Source of the DNA: Planotetraspora silvatica
GTDB taxonomy: Bacteria; Actinomycetota; Actinomycetes; Streptosporangiales; Streptosporangiaceae
NCBI RefSeq assembly: GCF_016863315.1
Contig: NZ_BOOQ01000023.1
Location: 1-64,000 of the forward strand
Length of the DNA stretch: 64,000 nucleotides
Reading direction: 5' to 3'
Part shown: one piece after another, positions 7,290 to 15,612 of the stretch
Numbering within the stretch: position 1 is the first letter of the stretch
How the letters are laid out: every line of letters begins with the position of its first letter
Program-made: the position numbers and the translations under genes
Notes under the pieces: model-generated
Databases searched by the model: none
Told to the model about the DNA's origin: nothing
The model's input: the letters and a program-made list of their open reading frames with translations, nothing else

Positions 7290-10200
7290 GTGAGCGATCT
7301 TCAGCCTGGCGTCTATGAGCACCTGGTCACTCGTGAACTCGGCGCGTTGATTCGGGCATTGCCCGACGATGGCCTGATCGACCGGCGTTCCCTCGATCCG
7401 GCGGATGCGCATGAGGCGTTGGCCCGGCACCTTGCCGCGCTGACCAGACGTGCGTTACGCGCCGTTCGAGGCGAGACGGATGCGGCGCAGCTGGCGCAAC
7501 AGGTCGAGATCGCCAACAAGGTCGCCGAGTTGGTCGGGAGTCTGGTTCCTGACGCCGCGGCGCCGGATGAGCTGGTGGAGGCGGCGCAGGAGTTGCTGGG
7601 CGTCGCCCGAGGCCGAGATGCGGCAGGGCTGGTGAGGTTCCCGCCGCGCCCGGTGATCCCGTTGACCAGTAGCGCGTTGCTCGTCGCCGGCCGCGGGCAA
7701 CCGGAGATCGGCCACGAACTCAAGCGCGAGCTGGCCTCTGCCGATCATGTGGATCTGCTGTGTGCGTTCGTGAAGTGGAACGGCGTACGGGTGCTGGCCG
7801 AGGCCATCGAGGAGTTCATCGCCCGTGGTGGGAAACTGCGAGTCATCACCACGACGTATATCGGTGCCACCGATCGTTTGGCGTTGGACCGGCTCGCCGC
7901 GATGGGCGCAGAGATCAAGGTCTCCTATGACACCCGGACGACCCGCCTGCACGCCAAGGCATGGCTCTTCCATCGCGCATCGAAGCTGTCCACCGCGTAT
8001 GTGGGCTCCTCCAACCTCTCCAAGACCGCACTCAGCCACGGCCTTGAATGGAACGTCCGGCTCGCCGAGGCTGAGCAACCGCACCTGATCGACACCTTCG
8101 CGGCGACCTTCGACGATTATTGGAGCGATCCGGCTTTCGAGTCGTACGACTCAGCACGGGACGCGGAGCGGCTGGACCTAGCGCTGGCGAATGAGCGGGG
8201 CGGTTCATCGGACATCGTCATCGACTTCGCTCATGTCGATGTACGGCCCTACTCATACCAGCGCGAAATCTTGGATGAGCTCGCGGCTGAGCGGCAGGTA
8301 CACGACCGGTGGAGCAATCTGGTGGTCATGGCGACCGGTACCGGAAAGACGGTGGTCGCCGGCCTGGACTACCGGCGACTGCGTAGTGCCGGGGAGGCCG
8401 AATCACTGTTGTTCGTCGCGCACAGGGAGGAGATTCTGCGGCAGAGCCTCATGACTTTCCGCCAGGTTCTGCGCGATGAGACGTTCGGTGAGCTGTTCGT
8501 CGGTGGTGCCCGGCCTGAGCGGTGGCGGCATGTGTTCGCCTCGATCCAGTCACTTCACACGCGGCCGCTTCCATCGCCCGAGGCATTCGACATGGTCATC
8601 GTGGACGAGTTCCACCATGCCGAAGCTTCGACGTACCGGCGGCTGTTGTCGGAGGTGAGGCCGAAGGTCCTCCTCGGACTGACCGCCACCCCTGAACGGG
8701 CGGATGGACAGGACATCAAGCATTGGTTCGGTGGCCGCATCGCGGCCGAACTGCGTCTGTGGGAGGCCCTCGAACGAGGCCTGCTCGCTCCATTCCAGTA
8801 TTTCGGCGTCCACGACGGGGTGGACCTGCAAGAGGTCGGCTGGCGACGCGGTCAGGGCTATGACGTGAACCAGCTCTCGGGTGTCTACACCGGCAATGAC
8901 CGTCGCGTCGCTGTCGTGTTGGAGACTCTCAACCGCAAGATCGGCGATGTCGGCGGTATGCGCGCCATCGGCTTCTGTGTGGGCATTGAGCACGCTCGAT
9001 TCATGGCCGACCGATTCACTCGTGCCGGGATCCCCTCGATTGCGATCACGGCGAGCAGCCCGCCCGCTGAGCGCTCGCAGGCTTTGAAGGACCTGCGAGC
9101 CCGGAAGATCAATACGATCTTCACTGTCGACTTGTTCAACGAGGGTGTCGACGTCCCAGAGATCGACACTGTCCTGTTCCTGCGTCCCACTGACAGCGCC
9201 ACGATCTTCCTTCAGCAGCTTGGTCGTGGCCTGCGTCTTGCAGACGACAAGCCATGCCTGACTGTGCTGGACTTCGTCGGTCACCAGCACAAGCAGTTCC
9301 GCTTCGACCGCAAGTATCGCGCCCTGACCGGCGCCAGCCGCACCGGCATCGCCCGCGAGGTCGACGAGGGCTTCCCCACCTTGCCGGCCGGCTGCGTCAT
9401 CGATCTCGACCGCGACGTGCGCCGACTGGTGCTGGACAACGTACGGCAGGCACTCAGCCTCAACTGGAAGGACCTGGCCCGCGAACTGCGCGAGCTGGGA
9501 GATCTGGCTCTGCCGCAGTTCTTGGAAGAGACCGGCCTCGACTTGGAGGACCTCTACCGGCGTCGCGAAGGCTGGACCGCACTGCGCCGAAGCGCCGGCC
9601 TGGAGGGCGAGGCGTCTGATCAGCGGATCGACAAGCAACTGGGACGGGCCTTCGGACGCATGCTGCACATCGACGACGTTGAACGGCTGAGCTACATGCT
9701 CAAGGTGCTGGACGGTCATCTGCCCGAATCACCACGCGAACGGCGACTGCTTGCCATGCTGGACGCTGCGGTGTGGGGCGGCACCGCCTCCTTCGCCGAG
9801 ATGGAGTCGCGGCTGCAGCAGTTGCACGGCGCACGTGGTGCCGAACTGAAGGCCCTAGCCGGCGTGCTGCACTCTGGGATCCATCGTGTGGCTCCACCAG
9901 TTGACGACCTGGTGCCCCTCCACGTCCACGCCCGCTATACCAAGAACGAGGCGCTTGCGGCGTTCGGCGTCGACAAGCCTGCCCATATGCGCGAAGGCGT
10001 GAAGTACGTAGAAGAACATAAGGCCGACCTGTTCTTCGTGACCATCGACAAGTCGGAGGACCACTTTTCCCCAACGACGCTGTACCACGACCGCGCCATC
10101 ACCGAAGAACTGTTTCAGTGGGAATCCCAGAGCGGGCTACGCTCCAGCACGGCCACTGCTCGTCGCTACATATCCGGCGAGTCCACTGTTCACCTGATGA

Positions 10201-10367
10201 TTCGCCAAACCAAACGCGATGAAGGCCTGGGCGCTCCCGCTTATATTTACGCCGGGCCGATGCGCTACGTCAGACACGAGAACGAACAACCGATCCGTTT
10301 CGTGTGGCGCCTGGACCACCCGCCTCCACCAGCGGTCTTCCACTACGCCAAGGCCACCGCAGGCTAA
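7290..10367 (+). CDS. SF2 DEAD/DEAH helicase with PLD domain and DUF3427 region
   Basis: A 1025-aa multidomain protein. The N-terminal half holds a phospholipase D-type nuclease domain: HAKAWLFH at about residues 219-226, then VGSSNLS (the HxK and GS parts of HKD; the Asp is not obvious). Next is a ResIII/SF2 helicase: MATGTGKT at about 346, VDEFHHAE at about 437, GLTATPER, FNEGVDVPEID and QQLGRGLRL. The last third matches the DUF3427 layout. Such proteins are often found in defence or mobile regions and could degrade or remodel foreign nucleic acid. It faces the Dna2-like operon convergently with 66 bp between stop codons; membership of the same system is an inference. Base composition is less GC-rich than its neighbours. 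Confidence 0.88.
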   Translation: MSDLQPGVYEHLVTRELGALIRALPDDGLIDRRSLDPADAHEALARHLAALTRRALRAVRGETDAAQLAQQVEIANKVAELVGSLVPDAAAPDELVEAAQELLGVARGRDAAGLVRFPPRPVIPLTSSALLVAGRGQPEIGHELKRELASADHVDLLCAFVKWNGVRVLAEAIEEFIARGGKLRVITTTYIGATDRLALDRLAAMGAEIKVSYDTRTTRLHAKAWLFHRASKLSTAYVGSSNLSKTALSHGLEWNVRLAEAEQPHLIDTFAATFDDYWSDPAFESYDSARDAERLDLALANERGGSSDIVIDFAHVDVRPYSYQREILDELAAERQVHDRWSNLVVMATGTGKTVVAGLDYRRLRSAGEAESLLFVAHREEILRQSLMTFRQVLRDETFGELFVGGARPERWRHVFASIQSLHTRPLPSPEAFDMVIVDEFHHAEASTYRRLLSEVRPKVLLGLTATPERADGQDIKHWFGGRIAAELRLWEALERGLLAPFQYFGVHDGVDLQEVGWRRGQGYDVNQLSGVYTGNDRRVAVVLETLNRKIGDVGGMRAIGFCVGIEHARFMADRFTRAGIPSIAITASSPPAERSQALKDLRARKINTIFTVDLFNEGVDVPEIDTVLFLRPTDSATIFLQQLGRGLRLADDKPCLTVLDFVGHQHKQFRFDRKYRALTGASRTGIAREVDEGFPTLPAGCVIDLDRDVRRLVLDNVRQALSLNWKDLARELRELGDLALPQFLEETGLDLEDLYRRREGWTALRRSAGLEGEASDQRIDKQLGRAFGRMLHIDDVERLSYMLKVLDGHLPESPRERRLLAMLDAAVWGGTASFAEMESRLQQLHGARGAELKALAGVLHSGIHRVAPPVDDLVPLHVHARYTKNEALAAFGVDKPAHMREGVKYVEEHKADLFFVTIDKSEDHFSPTTLYHDRAITEELFQWESQSGLRSSTATARRYISGESTVHLMIRQTKRDEGLGAPAYIYAGPMRYVRHENEQPIRFVWRLDHPPPPAVFHYAKATAG

Positions 10368-10433: not shown

Positions 10434-11735
10434 TCAGGCCTGAACACGGTGGTCGGACAGGTGGGCGAGGACGGCGTGGTTGGCCTCCCAGCCATCGGGA
10501 AATTTGACGGGCACGTTGAGCTGGACGCGTCCCGTGGACGGTTGGTTGTCGAGCAGTTCGGCGATTCCCGCGCGGGCGACGACGATGCAGGCATGGCGGT
10601 GGCGTGAGGTGAGCACGCAGAGGCGGCCGGATTCGAGGTGGAACGCGGTGGCGTCGCGCCGTCCGGACAGCGGGTGCAGGACGATCGTGACGTCGTATTC
10701 GCGGCCCTGGAGCCGGTTGGCGGTGTCGACGGTGATCCCGGCCGGCACACCGGCGGCGCGGATGGCGGCGACCTGGTCGTTGTGGGCGCAGCCGATGGCG
10801 ATGCGATCGGGGCCCACATCATGGGAGCCGTTCTCGTCGTGGGCGACGGCTCCCCGTTGGAGCAGGCGGACGGCCAGACCGGCGCAGGCCTGCACGGCGT
10901 CGGCGTCGGTGCGGATCGTGTGCCGATTGGGCAGTTCGTGGAGCGCCCACCCGGTGGCGGCGGCCTCGTTGAGCGTGCGGTCCCAGGCAACGGGGAATCC
11001 GGCGGTGGTGAGCTGAAGTTCGCGGTCGGCTGCTGCCGTACCGGATCGGAACGGCGCGAAGGGATAGAACGCCTCGGAGACGAGCGGGGCCGCACTCGCG
11101 GGCAGCCGCCAGGAGACGGGCAGCCGGTGTACGGGCAGGTTGTTGAGACGCCCGATGACGGCGACCGCGCTCTGCATCGGGTCCCAGGCGAGGCCGGCCC
11201 AGCGTTCGGTGTCCACGACGGAGAAGGGGTCGAGCTGTCCGGGGTCGCCGACGAACAGGGCCCGGTCGAACAGGGCGGCGATGGCCAGCAGCTTGTCGGA
11301 GCGCATCTGGTAGGCCTCGTCGACGATCGCCCACGTCCAGGTGTGGCCGGACACGTAGGCCCACTTGTCGGCTGTGGCGACCACGACCGCGCAGGCTTCG
11401 ACCTGGTCGATCTTGTTGGAGGCTGTGACGCCGGGGTGTCGCGTCACGCGGGACGGGACGGAGAATCCGTCGCTGTGCAGGCGGCCGATGGAGAGCGTGG
11501 GGGCTTTGGCGGCGAGTTTGTCCGTCAGGTCGTCGACCTGCTCGTTGGTCTGCGCCACGATCATGAGCCGTTCACCCGAGCCTGCGAGCGTCATGGCCGC
11601 GGTGACGACCAGGGTCGTCTTGCCCGCTCCGGGCGGGGAGTCCACGATGACGCCCCGGTGCGGGCCGCCGGTGAAGTCGGCCAGGATGGCTTCGGTGGCC
11701 TCGGCGGCCGCCTGCTCAGGAGTCAGTGTGATCAA
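10434..11735 (-). CDS. SF1B helicase of the Upf1/Dna2 type
   Basis: A 433-aa compact helicase. Motif I is SPPGAGKTT (residues 33-41), motif II VDEAYQ (138-143), motif III VGDPGQLDP (162-170), motif IV/Va region VSWRLP, motif V ITVDTANRLQGREYDV (334-349), and motif VI LCVLTSRHRHACIVV (372-386). DEAxQ, GDxxQLxP and LQGREYD are hallmarks of the Upf1/Dna2 branch. It has no nuclease or barrel domain of its own; these are encoded by the two genes just upstream. The start is TTG at 11735, overlapping the preceding stop (TTGA). It is the last gene of a four-gene operon and probably moves 5' to 3' on nucleic acid as a subunit of a complex. Confidence 0.88.
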   Translation of the reverse strand: MITLTPEQAAAEATEAILADFTGGPHRGVIVDSPPGAGKTTLVVTAAMTLAGSGERLMIVAQTNEQVDDLTDKLAAKAPTLSIGRLHSDGFSVPSRVTRHPGVTASNKIDQVEACAVVVATADKWAYVSGHTWTWAIVDEAYQMRSDKLLAIAALFDRALFVGDPGQLDPFSVVDTERWAGLAWDPMQSAVAVIGRLNNLPVHRLPVSWRLPASAAPLVSEAFYPFAPFRSGTAAADRELQLTTAGFPVAWDRTLNEAAATGWALHELPNRHTIRTDADAVQACAGLAVRLLQRGAVAHDENGSHDVGPDRIAIGCAHNDQVAAIRAAGVPAGITVDTANRLQGREYDVTIVLHPLSGRRDATAFHLESGRLCVLTSRHRHACIVVARAGIAELLDNQPSTGRVQLNVPVKFPDGWEANHAVLAHLSDHRVQA

Positions 11736-13192
11736 GACCAGGCCTCCTGGGCGTCTTCGTCTGTGGGGACATAGGGGGCCGGAGGCCCGCCGTGGGTCCA
11801 GGGGGTGTCTTCTCCGCTGGGCAGGCGTGGGCGTTGTCCGCCGCCGGGGTCGAGTTCGGCGTAGCAGACGATCTCGCCGACCTCGGGAACGCTGCCGGGG
11901 GCCGGGGTGGAACCACGCCCCATCTGGTCGTTGATCTGGATGACGACGAGGTCGCCGGCGATGCTGACGATCTCGGTCTTCTGCTTGCGATTACGGCTGG
12001 AGAAGAGCCTCTTGCCGGGCGAGAGCCGTACGGGATCGCTGGTGCGGATCGTGACGAGCGGGCGAGGGGCGGGCCGCGTCTTGCCGGGAGGGACGATCCG
12101 CCTGGTCGCGTCCACGGCGACGACCTCGCCGGAGAAGGCCTTTCCGGCCACGCGGTGCTCGGTCATGACGAGCGGGTCGTCGAAGGCCCGCTGCGCTTCA
12201 TAGGTCTGCAGGGCCGATTCCAGGTCGGCCAGGCGGATGGCCGCGCTGACGGCGCCGTCGACGCGTCCACGGGGGAAGCCGCCGTCGGCGAGGCGAGCGG
12301 TCTCACGGGTGAACTGATCACGATCCTTGGCCCACCGGGCGTCGACGGTCGCCGCTTCGGGAAGTCCGCGGAGCAGTCGGACGGCCTGCCACATCAGCGC
12401 CCAGGTCGGTTCCAGCTGGGTGCGTAGAGCTTCGCGGACCTGAGCCGGGGAGCCCGAGCTCTCGTAGGCGCGGATCGCGTGGTCCAGGACCTGACCGTCG
12501 AAGTCGGGATGTGTCTCAGGTCCGGCGGGCGGTGAGGTGAGTGGGTCTTCCGCCGCCAGGGCCGCCTCTGGGCCGTTCTGCCCTTCAGGTGGAGCGATCC
12601 AGGCGAGCTGTGTGGCGAGGTTGGCGTCCTCCATCGGGCTCTGCCCGGTGGCCCAGTGGAGGGCGAGTGCCTCGGTCAGGGCGACCAACGCCGACGATCC
12701 CGCGTATTCGGCTCGTTCGGCGAGGAAGGTCAGCCATTGGCCGAGGACCGGTACGGAAGGGTGCACCGGGTAGGGGCCGTCGGCGCGACGGAAGCGGGTG
12801 GAGCGGCCGAGCAGTTTGGTGAAGGCGACCCCGCCGCGGTTGGGCACCAGAAGTTGCGGGGCGTCGGAGGACCGTTCGTACGGAGTCTTCGCCTCGACGG
12901 TCTCGGTGACCGCGGCGAAGCCTTCGATGTAGGGCAGCATGACGTCGGCGAGTTCGGCCATGAAGGCGAAGCGCAGGTCGCGGTTGCGAGGTTGGGGGAC
13001 GACCAGGAGCCGCGGGTTCGCCGGGTCCGTGCCGACCAGCGCCGCCAGCGGCGCCGCGGCCTCACCGGCGAGCTTCAACGGAATGAACACCATGGGTGTG
13101 GCCGACAGATGCACGTGCCGGACGGTCGCGACGGGCTGAGCCCGTCCGGTTTGTACGGCTAACGCGCGCGCGTAGGAGCTGATGACGCTCAT
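11732..13192 (-). CDS. Hypothetical protein with Dna2/Upf1-like beta-barrel C-terminus
   Basis: A 486-aa protein not recognised as a whole. Residues 1-340 are mainly helical, without catalytic motifs I can name. Residues about 348-449 (SGEVVAVDATRR...RPLVTIRTSDPVRLSPGKRLF...EIVSIAGDLVVIQIND...GEIVCYAELDP) read as the small beta-barrel that precedes the helicase core in Dna2 and related SF1B enzymes. The tail is proline- and acid-rich. The ATG at 13192 overlaps the nuclease stop (ATGA) and its own stop overlaps the helicase TTG start. I infer that it bridges nuclease and helicase. The barrel call rests on pattern only and needs a structure prediction. Confidence 0.7.
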   Translation of the reverse strand: MSVISSYARALAVQTGRAQPVATVRHVHLSATPMVFIPLKLAGEAAAPLAALVGTDPANPRLLVVPQPRNRDLRFAFMAELADVMLPYIEGFAAVTETVEAKTPYERSSDAPQLLVPNRGGVAFTKLLGRSTRFRRADGPYPVHPSVPVLGQWLTFLAERAEYAGSSALVALTEALALHWATGQSPMEDANLATQLAWIAPPEGQNGPEAALAAEDPLTSPPAGPETHPDFDGQVLDHAIRAYESSGSPAQVREALRTQLEPTWALMWQAVRLLRGLPEAATVDARWAKDRDQFTRETARLADGGFPRGRVDGAVSAAIRLADLESALQTYEAQRAFDDPLVMTEHRVAGKAFSGEVVAVDATRRIVPPGKTRPAPRPLVTIRTSDPVRLSPGKRLFSSRNRKQKTEIVSIAGDLVVIQINDQMGRGSTPAPGSVPEVGEIVCYAELDPGGGQRPRLPSGEDTPWTHGGPPAPYVPTDEDAQEAWS

Positions 13193-14280
13193 GCGACGGC
13201 CTCGATGTAGATCCGCCGGACGTACCGCAACTGTTCGGCGATCTCGGTCTGCTCGGGAGAGGGCAGCCGACTGTCGTCGGCGAGACCGAGCGCGGTGGGG
13301 ATGGACTCGACGCCGCCCAACTCGTCCCGTGCGGTCCGCCCCAGCATGTCCGTCGACCCGCTGTCCCGAGCCTCGGCACGGCAGAACAGCGCCATCTCGC
13401 AACTGGAGAGACATTCGGGCGCGAACCGCGCGTCGACGGTGCTGACCGCCTTGGCGGCCTCGTCCGGGGACTGCGCCTCGATGTCGAAGGTGATCCCGAC
13501 GGGCAGTTCGTCGAGGATCCGGTCGATGCGGGTCAGGCGGGACAGCTGCCGGTCGAGCGCGGCCAGTTGCTGGCGGACGTCGAGCAGCGTCGCGGTCGGA
13601 TGGTTGGCGAAGTCCTTGGGGCAGACCAGCACGACATCGTGGGAGACGCGGTCGGGATCGAGGCCCTCGGACGCGAACAACGCACGCAGCGCGTACACGT
13701 AGACCGCGGATTGGCGGGCCGCCGCCGCGACCTGTCCGGCGTCGGCCTGGTCGTCGATGACGGCGAAGGATTTGATCTCCACGACGTGGAAGCGGCCTTC
13801 GATCTGGAAGGCGATGATGGCCGGCTCGAGGTAGACCTGATGGCCCGCGACACCGAGTTTCAGCAGCGGGTGGTCGAAGAGGGTGCCGGCTCCCTCGCCG
13901 TCGGAGGCGGCACGCTTGAGCAGCGCGCGCGTGCGGGTGTGCCGTACCTGATGGTTGTCGCTGCCGCCCACGTCGGAGATGTCGGAGTAGGACGCTTCGG
14001 AGATCGACAGGTCGAGCGTGTCGCGCAGCAGACGCAGCAGGTGGGCGCACCCGTTCGCCTTGACCAGGGCGTCGAAGGACGCGGCCCGGGTGATGGCGAA
14101 CGGAGACTGCCCGAATGGAGCGGGGTAGCCGAGGTGGGTCGCCGTTCTCTGCTTGTCGATCCCCGCGGCGTCCAGGAGGGCACGCCGGTCGCAGCCGGGG
14201 TTGACGGCGAGGGCGGCGATGGTGCGGGCGTTGTGGTCGAGGGGCGCGGCGGGACCGCGGAGCGTGTCGAGACGGGTCAC
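13189..14280 (-). CDS. Cas4/RecB-like PD-(D/E)XK nuclease with probable Fe-S cluster
   Basis: A 363-aa protein. The nuclease core shows E152, then E168-I-K170 (FHVVEIKSF) and the RecB-type QxxxY motif at Q190-Y194. Four cysteines are placed as in Cas4, AddB and Dna2: Cys30 in NPGCDRRALL before the core, and Cys290, Cys294 and Cys300 (CLSSCEMALFC) after it, which would hold a 4Fe-4S cluster. Spacing is Cx3Cx5C rather than the more usual Cx2Cx5C. The GTG at 14280 overlaps the previous stop (GTGA) and fixes the start. I infer a single-strand-directed nuclease working with the barrel and helicase proteins encoded next. Confidence 0.82.
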   Translation of the reverse strand: MTRLDTLRGPAAPLDHNARTIAALAVNPGCDRRALLDAAGIDKQRTATHLGYPAPFGQSPFAITRAASFDALVKANGCAHLLRLLRDTLDLSISEASYSDISDVGGSDNHQVRHTRTRALLKRAASDGEGAGTLFDHPLLKLGVAGHQVYLEPAIIAFQIEGRFHVVEIKSFAVIDDQADAGQVAAAARQSAVYVYALRALFASEGLDPDRVSHDVVLVCPKDFANHPTATLLDVRQQLAALDRQLSRLTRIDRILDELPVGITFDIEAQSPDEAAKAVSTVDARFAPECLSSCEMALFCRAEARDSGSTDMLGRTARDELGGVESIPTALGLADDSRLPSPEQTEIAEQLRYVRRIYIEAVA

Positions 14281-15044
14281 GCGGTCCTCGCTGTCTTCAG
14301 TCCCGCGCCGAACAGCCGGGTGACCTCGTTGAGCTGTTGTTCGGCGCGTCGGGCGGCCTCGCCGCGCTCGTCGGTGTCGCTCTCCTCGTGGACGGCGAGT
14401 TCGGCGCCCGCGGCGGCGATCACTTGGGCGGGATCGGCCTGGTCGAAGCCGTCCACGGCTCCCGGGATGTTCTGTGCCATCCGGGTCAGCAGGCGGTAGG
14501 CCGACGGTGAGGCGTCCTCGCCCGCACCGGTGAGCCGCATGATGTGCTCCGCGATGCGGGTGGCCGAGGTCAGGAAGTCCGCACGAGGGCTGAGCGGCCC
14601 GATGATGCGGCTCGGCAGGGGCCACGTGCTGACGGCCAGCAGCCCCCGTGCCGGGGACAGCAACTCGGAGGTCAGCGCGGCGCACAGATAGTACGGCCGG
14701 GCATACGGCGAGGTGCGGAAGGACTTCTCCTCGTCCCTGCGCAGGCTGGTCAGCTGGCTGGTGGTGATGTGACCGGCGAAGAACGCCTCGTTGACCGTCA
14801 CGATCATTTTGGCGGCCGTCGGCACGCCGAGCAGTGTGAGCGCCTGATGGACCTGCTCGCGTACGGGGAGCAGCGGGGCCTTGGCCGGCTCAGGCTCGGG
14901 CTCCAGCGCGTCGTCCCAGGCCCGCTCGGTCTTGCGGAGCTCGGCACGCAACGACCGGACGGTCGCGTGATCCCCGGCCGCCTTGGCGGCCCGTATCTCC
15001 GAGCGAAGCCCGGCGATGCGTTTTTCCAGAGCGTCTAGTTCCAC
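14277..15044 (-). CDS. Coiled-coil/winged-helix-like protein, first gene of the Dna2-like operon
   Basis: A protein of about 255 aa of unknown family. Residues 1-48 form a charged coiled coil (LDALEKRIAGLRSEIRAAKA, then VRSLRAELRKTERAW). Residues about 65-170 look like a DNA-binding winged-helix region: VHQALTLLGVPTAAKMI, TSQLTSLRRDEEKSF and PYYLCAALTSE. The GTG at 15044 is preferred: a GTG at 15101 would place the TTCCA repeat array inside the coding region and has no ribosome site. It is translationally coupled to the nuclease gene. It could be the operon regulator acting on the repeats upstream, or the target-recognition subunit. Confidence 0.7.
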   Translation of the reverse strand: MELDALEKRIAGLRSEIRAAKAAGDHATVRSLRAELRKTERAWDDALEPEPEPAKAPLLPVREQVHQALTLLGVPTAAKMIVTVNEAFFAGHITTSQLTSLRRDEEKSFRTSPYARPYYLCAALTSELLSPARGLLAVSTWPLPSRIIGPLSPRADFLTSATRIAEHIMRLTGAGEDASPSAYRLLTRMAQNIPGAVDGFDQADPAQVIAAAGAELAVHEESDTDERGEAARRAEQQLNEVTRLFGAGLKTARTA

Positions 15045-15153: not shown

Positions 15154-15612
15154 ATGCGATCTCTGCGACAGGGACGTGCCATCCATCTTTTGGACATCGA
15201 GAACCTGGCGGGCTCCGCCCGTCCCGGCACGGCCGAGGCCGAGCAGGTCATGGCCGCCTATCGGCGGCTGGTGCCGATCGGGGAGATGGACCAGTTCGTC
15301 GTGGCGGTCAATCACAACGCGGTCGTCGGGGTCGGCCTCGCGTTCCACGGCGTGCAGTTGCTGATGCGTTCCGGCCCCGACGGGGCCGACAGTGCGCTGT
15401 CCGAGGCGGCACGGGCCGACCGGGTGGATCTGCGGTTCGAACGCGTCGTCATCGGATCGGGTGACGGCTACTTCACGGACCTGGCGCGGTGGCTCGCTGA
15501 CCACGGTGTGCGGGTGACCGTGGTCGCCAGGACCCGCAGCATCAGCTGGCGCCTGTACGTGGCCGTCAGCGACGTCGCCTACCTCGACCCCGTCACCGAT
15601 CAGGCCGCCTGA
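15154..15612 (+). CDS. NYN domain (PIN-like) putative ribonuclease
   Basis: A 152-aa protein made of one NYN domain. LLDIENLAG carries Asp14 and Asn17, DGADSALSEAA carries Asp76/Asp79, and IGSGDGYFTDLARWLADHG carries Asp104 and Asp109; these match the acidic metal-binding centre of NYN/PIN nucleases. It therefore probably cuts RNA in a metal-dependent way, although some NYN proteins only bind. GGGAG lies 8 nt before the ATG. It is transcribed away from the Dna2-like operon and shares its 110-bp control region, which suggests it belongs to the same system. Confidence 0.85.
   Translation: MRSLRQGRAIHLLDIENLAGSARPGTAEAEQVMAAYRRLVPIGEMDQFVVAVNHNAVVGVGLAFHGVQLLMRSGPDGADSALSEAARADRVDLRFERVVIGSGDGYFTDLARWLADHGVRVTVVARTRSISWRLYVAVSDVAYLDPVTDQAA

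Follow-up and report, generated by a model that had tools for sequence, protein, structure and literature searches.

A candidate three-subunit Dna2-like helicase-nuclease encoded by neighboring genes in Streptomyces and related actinomycetes

Organization of the locus

The window analyzed here, a stretch of 64,000 nucleotides of the Planotetraspora silvatica genome (contig NZ_BOOQ01000023.1, positions 1 to 64,000), carries four minus-strand genes between 10434 and 15044, designated in transcription order COIL, NUC, BAR and HEL, of which NUC, BAR and HEL probably encode the subunits of one Dna2-like helicase-nuclease. Dna2 is an enzyme that both unwinds DNA ends and trims them. A preliminary description made from the sequence of the window had proposed a Dna2-like enzyme split over these genes, and the coordinates and the 4-base overlaps that it gave (GTGA, ATGA and TTGA at the three junctions) were confirmed. 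COIL (14277..15044) encodes a protein of 255 amino acids (aa) with a coiled-coil-like N-terminal stretch, of which residues 3-49 gave a weak match to a coiled-coil protein (E 0.004), and is an optional fourth gene. NUC (13189..14280) encodes a predicted 363-aa 4Fe-4S PD-(D/E)XK nuclease of the RecB/Cas4 fold, BAR (11732..13192) a protein of 486 aa with two domains in its structure model, and HEL (10434..11735) a 433-aa helicase core of superfamily 1B (SF1B).

All of the motifs quoted in the preliminary description were located: Cys30, Cys290, Cys294, Cys300, E168-I-K170 and Q190-xxx-Y194 in NUC, and DEAYQ (residues 139-143), GDPGQLDP (163-170) and LQGREYD (342-348) in HEL. HEL was the sole one of the four proteins that matched named families (AAA_30, AAA_11 and AAA_12); COIL, NUC and BAR gave nothing above the cut-off in Pfam, NCBIfam or PADLOC. 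No system model of PADLOC-DB 2.0 was matched by COIL, NUC or BAR, and HEL gave only partial matches there to helicases such as MkoA (E 2.1e-12).

Predicted structures of NUC, BAR and HEL

The structure model of NUC had a predicted local distance difference test score (pLDDT) of 90.1, and its best fold matches were Cas4 (Z 9.9, 189 residues aligned), AddA, RecB, Exo5 and MGME1. The model also matched residues 125-412 of Dna2 (Z 6.5, 194 aligned). The first predicted iron-sulfur (Fe-S) ligand, Cys30 (14191..14193), and the other three, spaced Cys290-x3-Cys294-x5-Cys300 (13381..13413), were not only present as described but also invariant among relatives (35 of 35 alignment rows). In a larger alignment this four-Cys signature was complete in 117 of 120 rows, and the three rows gapped at Cys30 were sequences with a short called start or at a contig edge. 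The catalytic motif E168-I-K170 (13771..13779) has E152 upstream and Q190xxxY194 downstream in the alignments; E152, E168 and K170 were jointly present in 104 of the 120 rows, and E or D occupied position 152 in 107. NUC is annotated, from its modeled fold and these sequence features, as a putative PD-(D/E)XK nuclease of the RecB/Cas4 type with a predicted 4Fe-4S cluster. When the NUC profile was compared with the PDB, the top row was a designed repeat protein (E 1.8e-05), which was judged a chance match.

Positions 168 and 190 of NUC were followed in a set of 132 rows, comprising the 120 above (among them the query and repeat loci) and 12 more. E168 was retained in 117 rows, none of which had E190, and was lost in 15, of which 10 had E190. 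The rows with E190 formed one clade in a tree of 62 loci; seven of its eight leaves had been tagged beforehand, and the eighth, L283, also had E190. This pattern suggests that the acidic ligand migrated to the neighboring helix in one clade, perhaps once. Such migration is seen in other PD-(D/E)XK enzymes, and the exchange between E168 and E190 makes catalysis by NUC look like a selected property. Plain decay as the explanation of E168 loss was replaced by migration for this clade and was kept for locus L141 and for the copies linked to pPIWI-RE islands, which are probably dead nucleases.

The preliminary description had read residues 348-449 of BAR as the Dna2 barrel. A confident AlphaFold2 model (mean pLDDT 90.9, predicted template modeling score 0.88) placed an SF1B 1B-type β-barrel at residues 345-450 (11843..12160), preceded by a long helix (314-338). 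The best barrel match was the 1B stalk and barrel of Ighmbp2 (Z 9.3, root mean square deviation 2.2, 83 aligned), and Sen1 (Z 7.7), Setx (Z 7.5) and Dna2 (Z 7.5, 89 aligned) followed. The match to the Dna2 barrel itself, at Dna2 residues 462-567, had been named as a check of the proposal and was found. The BAR profile had no match in the PDB. The argument rests on folds, since comparison of the NUC and BAR sequence profiles with the PDB was uninformative.

A second domain of BAR was overlooked in the preliminary description. Residues 30-340 (12173..13105) resemble in the model a DnaQ-like exonuclease fold, DnaQ-type exonucleases having an RNase H-type fold. Chains with 3′-5′ exonuclease domains made up 7 of 50 VIA rows (five different proteins, three of the rows being T7 polymerase), with Z 7.1-9.2 over 162-200 aligned residues, where Z below 8 can mean a common arrangement. 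The proteins were two B-family-type polymerases, T7 polymerase, the Rhodococcus diDNase and Nibbler. The acidic residues of the first strand are absent: the DxE motif, placed at about I37 and L39 by the range offset to T7 polymerase, had no counterpart, as D or E occurred at positions 34-43 in 0 of 37 BAR rows, and E44 was acidic in 36 of the 37. The modeled N-terminal domain is probably an inactive DnaQ-like scaffold.

The HEL profile matched DNA2 first in the PDB (E 1.2e-14), followed by SMUBP-2 (5.3e-13) and, lower in the list, UPF1 (1.2e-07); PDB entry 9kwf, a 'putative deoxyribonuclease', ranked behind SMUBP-2. The profile aligned to Dna2 in two pieces, residues 643-807 and, more weakly, 934-982. 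Walker A begins at residue 31 of HEL, and with only 30 residues before it HEL has no upstream 1B barrel; the barrel sits at the end of BAR. The three proteins thus match the Dna2 chain in the order in which their genes lie, NUC at 125-412, the BAR C-terminus at 462-567 and HEL at 643-982. About 50 residues separate the nuclease and barrel matches on Dna2 (412 to 462), leaving no room for the DnaQ-like domain. The BAR gene lies between NUC and HEL; the barrel fold being common, the position of the barrel is support for, not proof of, likeness to Dna2.

Conservation and co-inheritance of the genes

Gene content, order, conservation and co-inheritance were computed, as were the predicted folds. 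Among the 101 surveyed loci that carry BAR, a count in which one genome may appear with more than one locus, NUC, BAR and HEL were adjacent and codirectional in 93, and all four genes in 81; the remaining loci had contig edges, insertions, separated helicases, or absent or missed coil genes. Pairwise distance matrices of NUC, BAR and HEL correlated with r 0.934-0.939 over the 111 loci with all three genes, a value reached in 0 of 500 permutations, and those of COIL with r 0.84-0.89 (88 loci). NUC, BAR and HEL are inherited as a unit. Fold, profile and the survey of relatives thus back the central proposal of the preliminary description, that the parts of Dna2 occur here in Dna2 order as separate proteins. 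Its expectation that the genes would be conserved together held for NUC, BAR and HEL and failed for COIL, which had been counted as a fixed member: no COIL was found beside the Streptomyces core copy in any of nine loci (E 0.01). The fixed stoichiometry read from the gene overlaps was not upheld either, a 4-base overlap being present at all three junctions in just 5 of 23 loci.

NUC was found in 109 of 200 sampled genomes of the window's order, all 109 belonging to the window's family, and four of these had two full-length copies. BAR was present in 50 of 296 genomes of the class. In a genus taken as Streptomyces it was present in 99 of 101 genomes, mostly as a single copy. This assignment follows from a 16S sequence that shares 97.1% identity with a Streptomyces record, against 91.9% for the next best row, and the accessory cluster of a sister genome, which matches Streptomyces plasmids, also points to Streptomyces. 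In the two genomes of that genus without BAR, one of them 82% complete, NUC and HEL were absent as well. Nearly all sampled Streptomyces carry the NUC-BAR-HEL set as a chromosomal trait, and it is not mainly an element of defense islands. The three genes persist, at 20-34% identity, in two distant genomes of the phylum. In genomes G289 and G380, NUC and BAR are adjacent and HEL is kept on the same strand about 36 and 49 kb away.

A phage origin was considered and rejected: BAR had no match among 50,697 phage records, no NUC relative was confirmed in viral contigs, and the sole lead was one weak HEL-like contig (L285).

Some loci depart from the common layout. At L151, L163, L187 and L197, NUC and BAR lack an adjacent HEL and a GGDEF-EAL-like protein is encoded downstream; HEL was located elsewhere in the two genomes checked (L187 and L197). 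At L118 and L121 a protein of about 780 aa, which we take to be DUF262-like, is encoded between BAR and HEL, with an SMC-like ATPase divergent upstream. Outside the window, the genome from which it comes contains a broken second BAR C-terminus with HEL (C8:9117-9785), a decayed accessory copy.

A variant with NUC fused to a probable BAR

A fused protein of 836-954 aa, followed by a HEL relative, was encoded in 5 of the 296 genomes of the class (including the genome from which the query came), in genome G944 and on two Rhodococcus plasmids. In all seven loci tested the HEL profile recognized the relative, with E 2e-24 to 2e-39, and the HMMER profile of NUC detected the fused protein in four of the seven. 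Profile-profile comparison aligned the fused N-terminus with NUC (E 4.2e-07), including D-x-K and the clustered cysteines. In global mode the C-terminal part aligned with BAR at E 4.5e-05, compared with 0.35-0.59 for swapped pairings and 0.042-0.67 for COIL. These alignments support the assignment of the NUC part well and make that of the BAR part probable. In plasmid pDF02 of Rhodococcus, genes for a DNA methyltransferase and a DEAD helicase come after the fused protein and HEL relative.

Genomic neighborhoods

The core copy in Streptomyces has conserved synteny with a PAP2 phosphatase, a histidine phosphatase and a GGDEF-EAL protein, names read from sequence. Neighbors were counted over 129 loci, a sample that includes repeat loci and was assembled with a deliberate search for accessory copies; SbcD occurred at 11 of these, pPIWI at 4 and type I Jet at 3. 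A defense island as the main home of the genes was rejected as a general rule, since flanks vary among loci from different genera and defense neighbors are a minority.

In one clade of accessory copies, 11 of 12 leaves have a divergent SbcD upstream (at L054 as a fragment only), accompanied by an SbcC-like ATPase; the twelfth leaf, L275, had no SbcCD within the stretch fetched. Wadjet directly follows the trio in 6 of the 12 leaves, as type I at L053, L054 and L276 and type II at L198, with homologues at L274 and L275. Some of these leaves are near-identical, so the counts are not independent. The copies L053 and L054 are on plasmids. The distance to the contig end is 6.8 kb for the L273 copy, on a contig of 8.27 Mb; the L280 copy is found 21 kb from each of the two ends of a contig of 10.68 Mb. 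SbcCD and Wadjet are systems separate from the trio, and their physical linkage to it was seen only in this clade.

At loci L191, L200, L278 and L279 the operon is divergent beside a pPIWI-RE island (Y-REase, DinG-type helicase and PprPDDEXK), and the NUC of these loci lacks E168 and K170.

Two neighbors in the window lie on the plus strand and are not part of the core. The gene at 7290..10367 encodes a PLD, DEAD helicase and DUF3427 protein that matched PADLOC mREase_IV (E 1.6e-261), and that at 15154..15612, divergent from COIL, an NYN-domain protein. A homologue or fragment of the former was near the operon in 4 of the 129 loci, including L033 in a relative of the same genus and L113 in Micromonospora qiuiae, where the gene is divergent and lies upstream of COIL. 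NYN-domain homologues were near the operon in 9 of the 129, not always adjacent.

A model for the trio and its alternatives

The interpretation that we consider likely is that one Dna2-like helicase-nuclease is made up of NUC, BAR and HEL as its three subunits and has a resident chromosomal function in repair. The complex, its polarity, its substrate and its cellular role are what we infer. HEL would be the SF1B motor core, made up of RecA domains 1A and 2A, and BAR would lend the 1B stalk and β-barrel in trans, on its probably inactive DnaQ-like scaffold; other SF1B helicases have the 1B stalk and barrel within the same chain as the motor. NUC would be the 4Fe-4S nuclease subunit. By analogy with DNA2 and Bad, a Geobacillus enzyme compared below, the complex would load on a 5′-ended single strand at a junction and move 5′ to 3′, cutting the strand on which it travels, with the outcome of 5′ flap trimming or resection of DNA ends. 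The resident chromosomal role in Streptomyces and many related mycelial actinomycetes would most likely be repair of breaks or forks, and presence in nearly all sampled Streptomyces argues for such a housekeeping function. Additional copies that accompany SbcCD and Wadjet, or pPIWI-RE islands, probably act on foreign DNA, these links arguing for a secondary use in defense.

Several results weigh against this interpretation. Dna2 ranked only 40th of 50 among the fold matches of NUC, under Cas4, RecB and others. Unrelated barrels reached Z 6.7-8.2 in the same list of BAR matches, the barrel being a common fold, so that the 7.5 of Dna2 is unremarkable and Ighmbp2 alone stands out; Foldseek gave no BAR match under E 0.001, the best being Dna2 at E 0.0066. 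The exchange between E168 and Q190, confined to one clade, may be a single event. NUC has L168 and R170 in 4 of 4 pPIWI-linked copies and V168 with Q190 at L141, and the two most distant NUC rows have I aligned at position 152, with an aspartate nearby. The C-terminal part of the fused variant matched BAR in local profile-profile mode at only E 0.0038-0.0067 (probability <10%), the COIL control reached E 0.042 against it in global mode, and the BAR HMMER profile gave no match in the variant (E 0.001), for which reason confidence in the interpretation was set slightly lower. Streptomyces also has other end-processing enzymes, AdnAB among them, and the role of the trio may thus be narrower than resection.

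A function primarily against phages or plasmids, in which the complex degrades the ends of invading DNA and the Streptomyces copy is a fixed defense locus, appears somewhat unlikely. It would account for the neighboring SbcCD, Wadjet of type I or II and pPIWI-RE island, for the type IV-like restriction helicase in the window, and for the methyltransferase and DEAD helicase beside the Rhodococcus plasmid variant, the former recalling the type III-like methyltransferase beside Bad (PMC7430649). Presence of BAR, mostly once, in 99 of the 101 genomes taken as Streptomyces fits it poorly, as do the synteny genes of the core copy, which are unlike defense genes as read from sequence, with no search of a defense library; the minority share of defense neighbors; and the PADLOC results, in which COIL, NUC and BAR matched no model and HEL only helicases in part. 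A more skeptical view is that the operon encodes three small DNA enzymes with no relation to one another and that the likeness to Dna2 is the sum of common folds. Each of the folds is indeed widespread, and the barrel match to Dna2 is unspecific. This view is nevertheless very unlikely: the Dna2 order is kept with collinear matches to the Dna2 chain, HEL lacks an upstream 1B domain of its own, a NUC-like and probably BAR-like protein precedes the HEL relative in the fused variant, and all three genes are jointly absent in two genomes.

The trio might instead be a split form not of DNA2 or Bad but of a single protein of a mycobacterial family, in which a TM0106-type RecB/RNase_H_2 region precedes an IGHMBP2-type helicase. 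These proteins are single chains of 1112-1394 aa (loci L246-L265) in a family taken as Mycobacteriaceae, in the wide sense, on the basis of a protein (P0007) 97-98% identical to Rhodococcus plasmids and a G944 16S sequence nearest Tsukamurella (95.5%). Their parts are of the same kinds as those of the trio and follow the order seen there, with RecB-like nuclease, RNase H-fold domain and SF1B helicase identified by Pfam and NCBIfam in two of them, and the N-terminal domain of BAR resembles DnaQ-type exonucleases. Profile comparison detected no sequence similarity of BAR or NUC to them (hhalign E 0.58 and 0.27, respectively), a result that also counts against the reading that we prefer; the proteins were rejected as detectable homologues of BAR and NUC. 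A TM0106 protein is encoded separately beside the trio at the distant locus L201, so that both coexist, and we regard a split origin from this family as unlikely.

Under the preferred reading of a Dna2-like repair complex, a bolder proposal may be entertained, though its chances seem modest: the heterotrimeric Dna2 would be a fixed chromosomal repair machine of Streptomyces and related mycelial actinomycetes, in a bacterial end-processing pathway that is the counterpart of that of Mre11-Rad50 and DNA2, and with SbcCD and Wadjet it would form one degradation pipeline. On plasmids and near chromosome ends, Wadjet would open circles, SbcCD would prepare the ends, and the trimer would resect or destroy the DNA. 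Streptomyces has linear chromosomes and recombines heavily. A bacterial DNA2-like function would become testable in a tractable genus, three separable subunits would allow the roles of the barrel and of the central domain to be asked, and the links to SbcCD, Wadjet and pPIWI-RE would show reuse of a repair module in defense. The set looks like an overlooked repair machine that was also borrowed by plasmids and defense islands.

Comparison with known helicase-nucleases

No description of the NUC-BAR-HEL set was found in the library of open-licence papers that was searched. AddAB, AdnAB and RecBCD likewise combine a RecB-family nuclease fold with superfamily 1 motors; those motors are UvrD-like SF1A enzymes, whereas HEL is nearest DNA2, SMUBP-2 and UPF1. 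Eukaryotic DNA2, whose nuclease, barrel and helicase matches are collinear with NUC, BAR and HEL, is a single chain; here the parts are encoded by three genes, with at most NUC and BAR fused in relatives.

Bad, the DNA2-like helicase-nuclease of Geobacillus, is likewise one polypeptide and, in the paper that describes it (PMC7430649), is called rare and sporadic, with a central domain of unknown structure and an adjoining type III-like methyltransferase. According to the same paper it consists of an Fe-S 'iron-staple' nuclease, a central region and an SF1B helicase, the order found in NUC, BAR and HEL. Its methyltransferase neighbor is shared with the fused two-gene variant on pDF02. Bad is a rare single chain there, in contrast to the three genes found in 99 of 101 genomes taken as Streptomyces. 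If the interpretation is correct, an enzyme of the DNA2 type, deemed rare in bacteria in the Bad report (PMC7430649), would be near-universal in sampled Streptomyces in a split form. Among described enzymes, Bad is the closest to NUC-BAR-HEL, and the trio differs from it in the split into separate genes, in distribution and in genomic linkages.

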